From NCBI GenBank assembly GCA_022508505.1, contig JAFLVC010000014.1:1-46400 (forward strand): a stretch of 46,400 nucleotides of DNA, written 5' to 3'. How positions within the stretch are numbered: the stretch's first letter is position 1; the number at the start of each line of letters is the position of its first letter. This document shows positions 29,456 to 32,651 of this stretch, one piece after another. Position numbers and translations under genes: made by a program. The notes beneath the pieces were generated by a model that worked only from the letters and a program-made list of their open reading frames with translations, searched no databases and was not told the DNA's origin. The stretch is from Clostridiales bacterium (GTDB lineage: Bacteria > Bacillota > Clostridia > Christensenellales > Pumilibacteraceae).

Positions 29456-29484
29456 TTGAAAACCGCGTAAGAACATGATATAAT
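29456..29484 (+). promoter_or_regulatory. Promoter of AAA+/YbjN operon
   Basis: TTGAAA (29456-29461), 17-base spacer, TATAAT (29479-29484). The leader is about 80 bases. Confidence 0.82.
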
Positions 29485-29569
29485 TTAAAAAATTACGGCA
29501 TGAAACTTGCACAAAGGGGATTTTTCGACGGGTCCGTTTTGCGTTGAGATGTTTATGGGCAGGTAGTAC

Positions 29570-31603
29570 ATGAAAAAATTGACTATAGAATTTGATGGGG
29601 CTTGGGTATTACAGCATCGAGACGACGATGAATTGCCTATTGCAATCTTAAAAAACGAACTGAGCAAATTGTCCGGCGTTCAAGAAAAGGACAGTTCGCT
29701 CACTTCGCTTACTTTGGTTTTTGACGAGCAAAAGGCAGATACGGGCGACATAACAGAGTTAATAAAGAAGCTGATTGCCGACAGATATCCGCAAGACAAG
29801 AGCGATGACATACTGTCTGTTGAAATTGTCGACGTACCCGAAGAAAAAGACGTCAATCAAACGAGCGACGATCCCAGTAGCGGCGAGACCGAAGGCAAAC
29901 CTCAGTCCGGTTCCGATAGTCAGTCGGGGCAACCGAAAGAAGACGGACTTAAGACCGATAATAAAACCGCCGGAGTGTTGCAAAAAATCGACGCGTTGGT
30001 GGGAGCTTTGGAGTTCAAGCGGCTTGCTCACGAGATAGCGGACATCGCCGATGAGGTAAAGAGAACGAACACACAAGAGGTCTTTACCAATTGGTGCTAT
30101 CTTTTTTCTATAGGCGACGGCTGCGGCTTGACTACATATTTGGATTCGCTTGCCGAGCTTATATCGAGTGTGGGGCTGGGCGGAAAGTCGGCGGGTGTGC
30201 GCGAAGAGAGCCTTGCGCCGTACCGCGAAAGCCTTGAACCGTTTGAAGAGGTTATGCGCACGCTCAACGTCGGCAACTCGAAATCGCTCAGGGTGCTATG
30301 CGTCGACATCAGCGAGTGGATGAACCACACCGACAACCACTATTTCAAGCAGTTTTTGCGTGCTGTCGAAAAGCATGCAAACGAGTTTATAGTTGTGTTT
30401 AGGATTCCGTTTGTCGACAAGGACGTCTTGGCGAAAATACGGTATTCGCTGTCCGATTTGCTGAGCGTAAAGACGGTGTCGTTCCCGCCGTTGAATCATG
30501 ATGAAATTCAGGCTTGCGCCGTTTCGGAATTCGATCGGTTCGGTTTTTCGGTCGTCAAGGGCGCATGGAAGTTTATATTCGAGCGTATAGCGGAAGAAAA
30601 GAGCGACGGCAAGTTTTACGGTATCAACACGGTAAAGAAGGTCGTCAGAGAGCTTGTGTATCAAAAGCACCTGTCCAATATCAACAAGACGCACAAGAGC
30701 AGTCAAATAACAATCAACGACGCCAAGGCTGTGACAGGAAACGCCAACAGCTCGAATCTGTCGGGCATGGAACAGCTCGATAAGCTTGTCGGAATTGAAA
30801 GCGTCAAAAAACGCGTGGAAGAAATAATCGCTCAAATCGAGATGTCGATTCAAGACGGTTCGGCGCAGCGTCCGTGCATTCATATGCGTTTCGTCGGAAA
30901 TCCCGGAACGGGCAAAACGACTGTCGCGCGCATCATCGGAAGAATTTTGAAGGACAAAGGTGTTTTGCGCGTCGGCGCTTTCTTTGAGTACGGCGGGCGC
31001 GATTTTTGCGGTCGGTACGTGGGCGAGACGGCGCCCAAAACGACGAGCATCTGCAGAGACGCCTACGGCTCGGTGCTGTTTATCGACGAGGCGTATTCGC
31101 TTTACCGCGCCGATGACGACAGCAGGGATTTCGGGCGCGAGGCTATAGACACTCTGATTGCCGAGATGGAAAATCACCGCAACGATTTGGTTGTGATCAT
31201 GGCGGGGTATGTCGACGACATGAACAAGCTGATGAAGGGCAACCTCGGGCTTGCTAGCAGAATGCCGTACACGATCGAATTTCCCAACTTTACGCGCGAG
31301 CAGCTCTATGAGATTTTCAAGTCGATGGTCAACGAAAAGTTCAAATGCGACAGCGGTTTGCTTGACGCCGCGCGAAAGTTTTTTGACGGGTTGCCCGACG
31401 AAACCTTGTCGTCCAAAGAATTCTCGAACGCTCGCTATGTGCGCAACCTGTTCGAGCGGACCTGGGCAAAAGCAGCCATGCGCTGCCAGTTGAGCGGAAG
31501 CGCGAATGTCACGCTGACTCGCGAGGACTTTGAGCAGGCGAGCGCGGACAAAGATTTTATCAGCACAATGCCTAAAAAAGCCAGGATTGGTTTTAATATA
31601 TAA
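29570..31603 (+). CDS. Tandem AAA+ ATPase, first module inactive, second CbxX/EccA-like
   Basis: A 677-residue cytoplasmic protein. Residues 1-90 are a beta-rich domain I do not recognise, 95-135 an acidic Ser/Gly/Gln linker. Module 1 (about 150-385) keeps the AAA+ layout but has a Walker A reading GDGCGLTT (Leu187 in place of Lys) and a Walker B with Asp246 but no Glu. Module 2 (about 400-660) is intact: GNPGTGKTT (Lys449), VLFIDEAYS (Asp506-Glu507), and the CbxX-type pore and sensor segment FCGRYVGETAPKT. CbxX relatives remodel protein complexes (Rubisco activase, type VII EccA, SpoVK). The client here is unknown; the two YbjN-fold genes that follow are the best candidates. AGGTAG precedes the ATG. 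Confidence 0.88.
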   Translation: MKKLTIEFDGAWVLQHRDDDELPIAILKNELSKLSGVQEKDSSLTSLTLVFDEQKADTGDITELIKKLIADRYPQDKSDDILSVEIVDVPEEKDVNQTSDDPSSGETEGKPQSGSDSQSGQPKEDGLKTDNKTAGVLQKIDALVGALEFKRLAHEIADIADEVKRTNTQEVFTNWCYLFSIGDGCGLTTYLDSLAELISSVGLGGKSAGVREESLAPYRESLEPFEEVMRTLNVGNSKSLRVLCVDISEWMNHTDNHYFKQFLRAVEKHANEFIVVFRIPFVDKDVLAKIRYSLSDLLSVKTVSFPPLNHDEIQACAVSEFDRFGFSVVKGAWKFIFERIAEEKSDGKFYGINTVKKVVRELVYQKHLSNINKTHKSSQITINDAKAVTGNANSSNLSGMEQLDKLVGIESVKKRVEEIIAQIEMSIQDGSAQRPCIHMRFVGNPGTGKTTVARIIGRILKDKGVLRVGAFFEYGGRDFCGRYVGETAPKTTSICRDAYGSVLFIDEAYSLYRADDDSRDFGREAIDTLIAEMENHRNDLVVIMAGYVDDMNKLMKGNLGLASRMPYTIEFPNFTREQLYEIFKSMVNEKFKCDSGLLDAARKFFDGLPDETLSSKEFSNARYVRNLFERTWAKAAMRCQLSGSANVTLTREDFEQASADKDFISTMPKKARIGFNI

Positions 31604-31618
31604 TTTAGGAGGCTTAAA

Positions 31619-32095
31619 ATGTCAGACGAAAAAGAACTAAAACATGCCCAAACAGTTTATTCGACGCTTTGCAATATGTTGGATGAACATGGTTGGCACT
31701 ACGAGAAGCACGATGAGGATCTTTCCATTTCTTGTGCTGCGCAGGGTGACGACTTGCCGATTGACCTCCATGTAGAAGTCGACATGAAGCGCCATCTCAT
31801 CACGCTGTTGTCAAAAATGCCGTTCTCTGTCGCTCCCGAGCGTAGAGCAGCATTGGCTGTAGCCGTCAGTCAGGCGAACAACGGCATGGTCGACGGAAGC
31901 TTCGACTACGACTACACGAGCGGCAGAATTATATTCCGCATGACGTCGAGCTATCTCGACAGCCTTATCGGGAAAGACCTGATGGTCTATATGGTTATGT
32001 GCTCTTGTAAGACGATTGACGACTACAACGACAAATTTCTCATGGTCGCCAAGAGCGAAATGACCAACGAAGAAATTCTCGAATTTATCAAATAG
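31619..32095 (+). CDS. YbjN-domain protein 1
   Basis: A 158-residue protein of the YbjN superfamily, whose fold resembles type III secretion chaperones. Features are an N-terminal helix (AQTVYSTLCNMLDEHGWHY), strands ending in ...GDDLPIDLHVEVD, the conserved NNGMVDGSFDYDYTSGRIIFRMTSS region, and a C-terminal helix pair. A perfect AGGAGG lies 7 bases before the ATG, 15 bases after the AAA+ gene. It is a close paralog of the next gene. It should be cytoplasmic. Confidence 0.85.
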   Translation: MSDEKELKHAQTVYSTLCNMLDEHGWHYEKHDEDLSISCAAQGDDLPIDLHVEVDMKRHLITLLSKMPFSVAPERRAALAVAVSQANNGMVDGSFDYDYTSGRIIFRMTSSYLDSLIGKDLMVYMVMCSCKTIDDYNDKFLMVAKSEMTNEEILEFIK

Positions 32096-32105
32096 GAGGT
32101 TAATC

Positions 32106-32576
32106 ATGGCAGACGAAAAACAACTTAAAAAAGCGCAGACGGTATACGCTTCATTATGCGGAATGCTCGACGAAAAGAGCTGGCACTACGAACAGCACAA
32201 GGAAGATTTAGTCATCACCTTCACGGCGCGGGGTGACGATATCCCCATGCAGTTTATCATTTACATCGACGCAGATCGCGAACTCGTGCGCCTGATGTCT
32301 CCCATTCCCATCTCGTTCGGCGAGGATAAGCGCGTCGAGGGCGCGTTGGCGACCAGCCGCGTCAACTACGCTCTTGCGGACGGAAGCTTCGACTACGATT
32401 TCAAAGAGGGCAAAGTCATGTTCAGAATGACTTCGAGCTACCGCGATAGCTTGATTTCCATGGAGCTGATGAAGTACATGGTCGGTTGCGCTTTGTATAC
32501 GGTGGACGAGTATAACGATAAGTTCCTCATGATTGCAAAGGGCATGATGTCGGTGGACGACCTCTTTTCCAAGTAA
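32106..32576 (+). CDS. YbjN-domain protein 2
   Basis: A 156-residue paralog of the preceding protein (both begin M(S/A)DEK.LK.AQTVY and share DGSFDYD and FRMTSSY.DSLI). AGGAGG at the end of the preceding gene serves it, with a gap of 10 bases. The pair may form a heterodimer, which would explain keeping two copies; that is inference. It is the last gene before a strong terminator. Confidence 0.85.
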   Translation: MADEKQLKKAQTVYASLCGMLDEKSWHYEQHKEDLVITFTARGDDIPMQFIIYIDADRELVRLMSPIPISFGEDKRVEGALATSRVNYALADGSFDYDFKEGKVMFRMTSSYRDSLISMELMKYMVGCALYTVDEYNDKFLMIAKGMMSVDDLFSK

Positions 32577-32610
32577 TCTCGCACTTAGCAATGTTTAAAA
32601 GTTAAAGCAC

Positions 32611-32651
32611 AACAGGCTTACTCGAACGACCGCGTAAGCCTGTTCCTTTTT
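32611..32651 (+). terminator. Terminator of AAA+/YbjN operon
   Basis: Perfect 11-bp stem AACAGGCTTAC (32611-32621) / GTAAGCCTGTT (32634-32644), then CCTTTTT. Confidence 0.88.

Follow-up and report, generated by a model that had tools for sequence, protein, structure and literature searches.

What does a AAA+ ATPase that has lost the chemistry of one of its two modules do beside a pair of small YbjN-family proteins? The question is posed by three genes (the trio) in the window, by which we mean the whole 46,400-nucleotide stretch of Clostridiales DNA analysed here (G000:C6:1-46400, within a genome of 1.89 Mb; G and L numbers are our handles for genomes and loci). The first gene encodes a tandem CbbX-type AAA+ protein composed of an N-terminal domain, a degenerate module 1 and an intact module 2; the other two encode the paralogues YbjN-1 and YbjN-2 (Table 1). 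We find that the ATPase and YbjN genes form a unit that is conserved but not self-contained. Its main interest is that it gives YbjN a testable partner.

Module 1 aligns to module 2 over 243 columns (E 6.1e-8; 0.15 for the reversed control). In a focused structure model it has the α/β core and lid of the AAA+ fold over residues ~130–395, and its best structural match is CbbX. The two residues that mark an active AAA+ ATPase, the Walker A lysine and the Walker B glutamate, are both missing. Leu187 occupies the lysine position, which in 34 homologues is L in 26, F in 4, V in 2, S in 2 and K in none, and Ile247 occupies the glutamate position, where Glu occurs in 0/34, the preceding Asp246 being retained in 33/34. 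Because lysine and glutamate are absent from all 34 homologues, module 1 is, as judged by its residues, an old and fixed pseudo-ATPase of the CbbX type whose chemistry has been lost. A stretch of its lid is invariant (E343, D346, G347 and F349 are each present in 34/34), and we infer that it is a docking or subunit surface. An earlier note on this DNA had described module 1 as a AAA+ module with leucine 187 in place of the Walker A lysine and with no Walker B glutamate, which is confirmed; it had also staked that description on a AAA+ fold in residues 150–385, and the match of the focused model to CbbX agrees with it. Degeneracy of the first ring is known from two-tier AAA+ proteins such as those of the Pex1/Pex6-like type. 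These share with the window ATPase the pairing of an inert and an active module in one chain and differ from it in belonging to other AAA+ subfamilies. Lysine-free in every homologue compared, module 1 lends itself well to the question of why an inert tier persists in two-tier AAA+ machines.

Module 2 has kept what module 1 has lost. Its Walker A lysine (Lys449) and its Walker B aspartate and glutamate (Asp506 and Glu507) are each present in 34/34 homologues, and it is thus predicted to be an active ATPase. Several of the features expected of SpoVK–CbbX–EccA-like ATPases, which we took from excerpts of PMC10659427, are also found. The GY signature of sensor 1 (residues 546–547) is conserved, G in 33/34 and Y in 34/34, as are Asn558 (33/34) and Arg622 (33/34, with one gap), the latter assigned by its motif as the sensor-2 arginine. 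Four residues past the asparagine, where the clade has its first arginine finger, the window protein has alanine, arginine being found there in only 6/34 homologues; an arginine at +6 (R564 in the window) is found in 33/34. The clade also has a helical hairpin ahead of Walker A; helices at 399–406 and 410–428, which may correspond to it, are predicted, in a low-confidence model, to precede the strand at 436–441. Module 2 aligns with the SpoVK, CbbX and EccA models over ~240–265 residues, and a PDB search with it matches CbbX and EccA1 (9lur). The scores are nevertheless far under every equivalog cut-off: 239.3 bits against 422.95 for SpoVK (TIGR02881), 203.3 against 459.25 for CbbX (TIGR02880) and 190 against 466.65 for EccA (TIGR03922). 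The view of the earlier note that this module is fully intact and CbxX/EccA-like is supported by these residues and matches. Excerpts of PMC10659427 describe ATPases of the SpoVK–EccA clade as chaperones with dedicated roles, whose N-terminal domains vary and are thought to recruit targets. The window ATPase resembles them in the make-up of module 2, in a module 1 whose fold is nearest CbbX and in bearing a variable N-terminal domain. Unlike them, it has an added dead CbbX-type module and an N-terminal domain of its own, and it adjoins YbjN genes.

The N-terminal domain (residues 1–94) is predicted, again with low confidence, to follow the order strand–helix–strand–strand–helix–strand, and W12, D19 and P23 are invariant in a 15-row alignment. 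It was found on the ATPase in 17 of 20 genomes searched. Its sole other carrier in those 20 genomes is a weakly TPR-like protein (G184) whose gene immediately precedes that of the ATPase. A weakly TPR-like protein with the domain, its gene directly upstream of the ATPase, is encoded at L070:10460-11890. Two candidate identities were rejected. One was a ClpS-like adaptor, for which the best ClpS chain gave E 0.12 and the Pfam matches of 15 members included no ClpS family; the other was TIGR04116, whose match at E 0.099 we judge to be chance.

YbjN-1 and YbjN-2 both score above the cut-off of PF10722 and are 51% identical to each other, which bears out the earlier description of two YbjN paralogues downstream of the ATPase. 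They resemble E. coli YbjN, Erwinia AmyR and Deinococcus DR1245 in this family match and in their small size. They differ in occurring as two paralogues in an operon with a AAA+ gene, and in lacking a sequence match to the solved YbjN structures: PDB sequence searches matched no YbjN entry, and the matches that the YbjN profile did return, designed helical barrels and a designed NTF2, were taken as chance. Excerpts of PMC3575483 and PMC5398634 report that YbjN proteins of solved structure dimerize and have a fold like that of type III chaperones, that DR1245, which has the YbjN fold, binds the SSB-like protein DdrB, and that the authors working on AmyR regard YbjN proteins as acting through protein contacts and, for AmyR itself, report no sign of a function in secretion. 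By analogy, the same dimeric fold (α-β-β-β-α-β-β-α) is expected for the window proteins. E. coli, Caulobacter, Synechococcus, Deinobacterium and Corynebacterium are among the control genomes with YbjN matches. Going by titles and the first lines of abstracts, none of the literature matches listed was found to pair YbjN with a CbxX-type ATPase; PMC6016940 mentions both ‘ybjn’ and ‘AAA+ ATPase’.

Are the ATPase and YbjN genes neighbours elsewhere? Using profile searches, from which all counts of loci and genomes below are taken, we found the ATPase (profile of the N-terminal part and module 1) in 36 of 396 genomes of the order, in 6 of 361 in a scan of the class, including the window genome and another of the order, and in an uncultured Clostridia bin (L019). 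A YbjN profile matched 81 of the same 396 genomes, and the two co-occur: YbjN is present in 28/36 genomes with the ATPase versus 53/360 without it (Fisher 6e-15). In 17 of the 36 a YbjN gene is found on the same strand at no more than 3 kb, where ~0.11 would be expected by a crude estimate that assumes uniform placement in genomes of 1.8 Mb. The limit was set at 3 kb because distances run from the N-terminal profile match and not from the gene end. The three genes thus pass the test set by the earlier note, that they be neighbours in other genomes. In 15 of the 19 loci holding both, the start of the first YbjN open reading frame lies between −4 and +53 bp relative to the ATPase stop; in the remaining four, two starts of the longest reading frame overlap the ATPase by 136 bp, one lies at +129 and one is upstream. 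This order and spacing are kept in several families. In G264, a different contig carries at its end an ATPase fragment followed by a YbjN pair. Elsewhere among the 36, YbjN lies at a distance in 10 genomes and has no match in 8, of which three, in keeping with the reading we prefer below, have a damaged ATPase (G016 is without module 2, G047 is split over two frames and G026 retains a 78-position piece with a stop) and a fourth, G134, is cut by the contig end where the downstream gene would be.

Within the genus, the ATPase is full length or nearly so in 5 of 19 other genomes, truncated in G016 and absent, at the threshold used, from 13; a YbjN pair stands beside it in G014 and G018. When 11 other window genes were compared with two trio loci of the same genus (19.0 and 12.3 kb), no match was found in either; the trio has thus stayed intact where its flanks have not. 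To look for an empty site we used the flanking DegV-like gene, matched in 7/20 genomes of the genus, the window's included; three stretches of the six other genomes match none of 14 other window genes tried, and for this reason no empty site could be drawn.

YbjN genes that lie away from the ATPase adjoin a second kind of AAA+ machine, a fusion of AAA_2, FtsH-type AAA and Peptidase_M41 domains (957–1,174 aa in the four scanned). Such fusions, pieces included, were assigned to 27 of the 396 genomes by a best match above 600 bits, chosen from 60 matching, ordinary FtsH-like proteins scoring 337–361; the assignment is by Pfam for L108, L123, L067 and L105 and by profile for the rest. Nine of these 27 genomes have a YbjN gene on the strand of the fusion and no more than 2.5 kb away, five of them within 100 bp, where ~0.04 would be expected. 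In G272 (L067), both AAA+ machines, a YbjN pair and a helix-turn-helix (HTH) gene form one cluster. The likeness of our locus to FtsH-type M41 proteases is confined to this shared YbjN neighbour in relatives: the window ATPase has no peptidase match, and a search of the window genome gave no fusion at the threshold applied. YbjN pairs also adjoin genes for FtsK/SpoIIIE-like and Snf7-like coiled-coil proteins in G267 (L110:5174-8726, by Pfam) and, by similarity, in G020 (L111:4905-8602).

How might the unit work? We put at somewhat below an even chance our preferred reading, that the operon encodes a two-tier, ATP-driven remodeller with a YbjN dimer as its client-binding adaptor. Module 2 would assemble into a ring like those of CbbX, SpoVK and EccA and do the ATP-dependent work. 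Module 1, a duplicated CbbX-type module that makes no use of ATP, would sit above it as a passive tier, making the ring stiffer and providing a docking surface, chiefly in the invariant E-x-x-DGxF lid region, while the small N-terminal domain may recruit partners through its flexible linker. The two YbjN proteins would form homo- or heterodimers, and the dimer would contact the ATPase, holding an exposed segment of a dedicated client and presenting that client to it. In related bacteria, the same kind of YbjN protein would be lent to the M41 fusion protease. A wider proposal, which is possible and in our estimate rather unlikely, is that YbjN-fold dimers constitute a class of AAA+ adaptor in these bacteria, serving either a refolding machine of two tiers whose first ring is a fossil, as in the window, or the AAA_2–AAA–M41 protease. 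Were it true, one YbjN adaptor family would have a part in determining whether a client is rescued or destroyed. The recurring, ordered link to two AAA+ machines gives the poorly understood YbjN proteins a role that can be tested: do their dimers deliver clients to AAA+ rings?

The main rival turns this relationship around: the YbjN pair would be the client or regulated output, and the ATPase would assemble, activate or dismantle YbjN complexes as CbbX does for Rubisco and SpoVK for MurG. Excerpts of PMC10659427 have ATPases of this clade acting on dedicated targets, and the adjacent genes would then be the target. However, YbjN genes adjoin two different AAA+ machines, which is easier to explain with a shared adaptor than with a shared client, and a YbjN-fold protein is reported in excerpts of PMC3575483 and PMC5398634 to bind a partner elsewhere; we regard the client role as unlikely. 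Less probable still is that the genes are a mobile stress or conflict cassette, possibly anti-phage, in which the ATPase–YbjN unit senses an invader or stress protein. The patchy distribution of the ATPase in the order and genus, including its truncation in G016, would suit such a cassette, as would flanks that differ between loci and neighbours that include a GmrSD-type gene (L070), TerD (L026), a kinase with PP2C (L020) and vWA with a kinase (L028). These neighbours, however, each occur at single loci only. The PADLOC matches were all to generic AAA models (best DolB, 1.9e-9), with none for YbjN, which counts against a known defence system. A phage or plasmid origin of the ATPase was rejected: its N-terminal part and module 1 have no match in 72,556 plasmid records, none of the 65 viral-contig stretches that fit a pattern encodes a relative, and of 11 phage records matched in a search with the whole ATPase the 10 listed match from residue 358 onwards, a part that takes in module 2 along with the last stretch of module 1.

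A secretion-linked machine, in which an EccA-like motor works with a pair resembling secretion chaperones, had been suggested by the earlier note. EccA is indeed among the nearest models and PDB matches of module 2, and the YbjN fold resembles that of type III chaperones in excerpts of PMC3575483 and PMC5398634. Set against this are the AmyR report cited above and the neighbouring genes, among which no secretion family exceeded its Pfam cut-off in those scanned, most neighbours being unscanned and the genomes not searched for secretion systems; we hold a secretion role to be very improbable. To passive inheritance of the neighbourhood, with the ATPase and YbjN working apart, we give the lowest probability of all. 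The ATPase genes without an adjacent YbjN, and the YbjN pair that G009 carries on another contig, would fit it, but order and spacing are kept in several families, the flanks have changed in two same-genus loci and neighbouring pairs exceed chance.

Several observations weigh against the remodeller–adaptor reading itself. The ATPase–YbjN loci share ancestry, so their counts are not independent. An undamaged ATPase lacks an adjacent YbjN gene in 14/36 genomes, 10 with YbjN elsewhere and 4 with none; because of these, the term ‘self-contained’ that the earlier note used of the machine was too strong, and the YbjN genes beside the M41 fusion protease also speak against it. Three same-genus genomes, G005, G009 and G013, have a full ATPase without an adjacent YbjN, only 644 bp downstream being visible in G013. 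The M41 fusion protease does not need YbjN, because their genome-level co-occurrence is weak (10/27, p 0.03), with 17/27 fusion genomes having no YbjN match. Outside the order, the link between YbjN and AAA+ genes is mostly absent. In a scan of the phylum, the Pfam model found YbjN in 15 of 338 genomes, one being the window genome, and in 12 YbjN stretches from 11 of the 14 others a AAA gene is near only in G1051, two genes away, a winged-helix gene separating it from YbjN. In two other stretches an isolated P-loop motif occurs in a gene, one of these genes being SRP54-like by eye. This check covered the nearest seven open reading frames per stretch with two AAA profiles and the P-loop motif, and other ATPases could escape it. 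Finally, a tree of 33 rows separated YbjN-1 from YbjN-2 (support 92/97) and the split was lost with 71 rows, so an ancient YbjN-1/YbjN-2 pair was dropped and positional pairing is claimed for two loci only, L020 and L021, where each window YbjN is nearest to the gene at its own position. At L019, YbjN-2 barely separates the two genes (50.0 versus 49.4%).

The features of the locus, and the fusion proteases found near YbjN genes in other genomes, are listed in Table 1. The coordinates of the locus had been given correctly in the earlier note, and its reading of the trio as one transcription unit is supported by sequence features: a predicted promoter, gaps of 15 and then 10 bp between successive genes, all on the + strand, and a likely terminator. 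This terminator is absent from the output of the consensus scan that gave the promoter. A Pfam scan identifies the flanking genes as DegV-like upstream and an alpha/beta hydrolase downstream.

Table 1 Features of the ATPase–YbjN locus (window coordinates) and fusion proteases near YbjN genes (L coordinates)
Feature	Position	Strand	Basis
Predicted sigma-70-like promoter, TTGAAA-17-TATAAT, extended -10 (TG)	29456..29484	+	Consensus scan, 11/12 matches
Tandem CbbX-type AAA+ protein, 677 aa	29570..31603	+	Reading frame and profile matches
N-terminal domain, residues 1-94	29570..29851	+	Low-confidence model, 15-row alignment
Acidic variable linker, residues ~95-129	29852..29956	+	Predicted local distance difference test (pLDDT) <50 over 90-129
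Module 1, degenerate CbbX-type AAA+ module, residues 130-395	29957..30754	+	Alignment, focused model, homologues
Module 2, intact SpoVK/CbbX/EccA-like AAA+ module, residues 398-677	30761..31600	+	Profile and PDB matches
AGGAGG, likely ribosome-binding site of YbjN-1	31607..31612	+	Read from sequence
YbjN-1, 158 aa	31619..32095	+	PF10722, 30.9 bits (cut-off 22)
AGGAGG, likely ribosome-binding site of YbjN-2	32094..32099	+	Read from sequence
YbjN-2, 156 aa	32106..32576	+	PF10722, 34.5 bits (cut-off 22)
Likely intrinsic terminator, 14-nt arms, 6-nt loop, T run	32611..32651	+	Inverted-repeat search; T run read directly
AAA_2-AAA-Peptidase_M41 fusion near YbjN	L108:4552-8019		
AAA_2-AAA-Peptidase_M41 fusion near YbjN	L123:634-4110		
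AAA_2-AAA-Peptidase_M41 fusion near YbjN	L113:1959-5378		
AAA_2-AAA-Peptidase_M41 fusion near YbjN	L124:4573-7914		
AAA_2-AAA-Peptidase_M41 fusion near YbjN	L067:2546-5419		

The genome of the window encodes a paralogue of the ATPase on another contig (G000:C1, L029:7265-10569), composed of a weakly TPR-like N terminus, a CbxX module and a AAA module with AAA_lid_3. It lies downstream of coiled-coil-like proteins, for one of which the match to Pfam Snf7 (ESCRT-III) reaches no better than E 0.02; a homologue of the coiled-coil protein at L110:5174-5749 matches Snf7 at 1.7e-5 and 25.0 bits, below the cut-off of 27.3. The L029 genes are possibly an ESCRT-like set in a bacterium.

The surroundings of the ATPase vary between loci. 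At L020:5163-8480 (G014), protein kinase, PP2C phosphatase and ThiF-like genes lie upstream of the trio. At L028:2413-11800, where the ATPase is cut by the contig start, the trio is followed by genes for a vWA-like protein (under cut-off), a protein kinase, a PP2C-like protein (by eye), a zinc-peptidase-like protein (weak, under cut-off) and a radical SAM protein. At L026:7127-9771 (G016), unrelated sequence stands in place of ATPase module 2, and the next gene has a TerD domain. A membrane-plus-Rossmann-like protein with a conserved EHxRW motif is encoded at L019:6016-7995, L083:10736-12880, L089:5916-8090 and L114:2115-4406, with a weak TrkA_N match in L019 only (18.0 bits; cut-off 23.8). 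It adjoins the ATPase or its YbjN gene in L019, L083 and L089, and in L114 it is followed by a RyR-domain gene (PF02026, 4.4e-7) and then by YbjN. Related HTH genes recur near ATPase, YbjN or fusion-protease genes (L067:6295-6618, HTH_3 by Pfam; L068:2074-2403; L026:9790-10113; L114:1547-1900; L140:9948-10304) and possibly encode a regulator.

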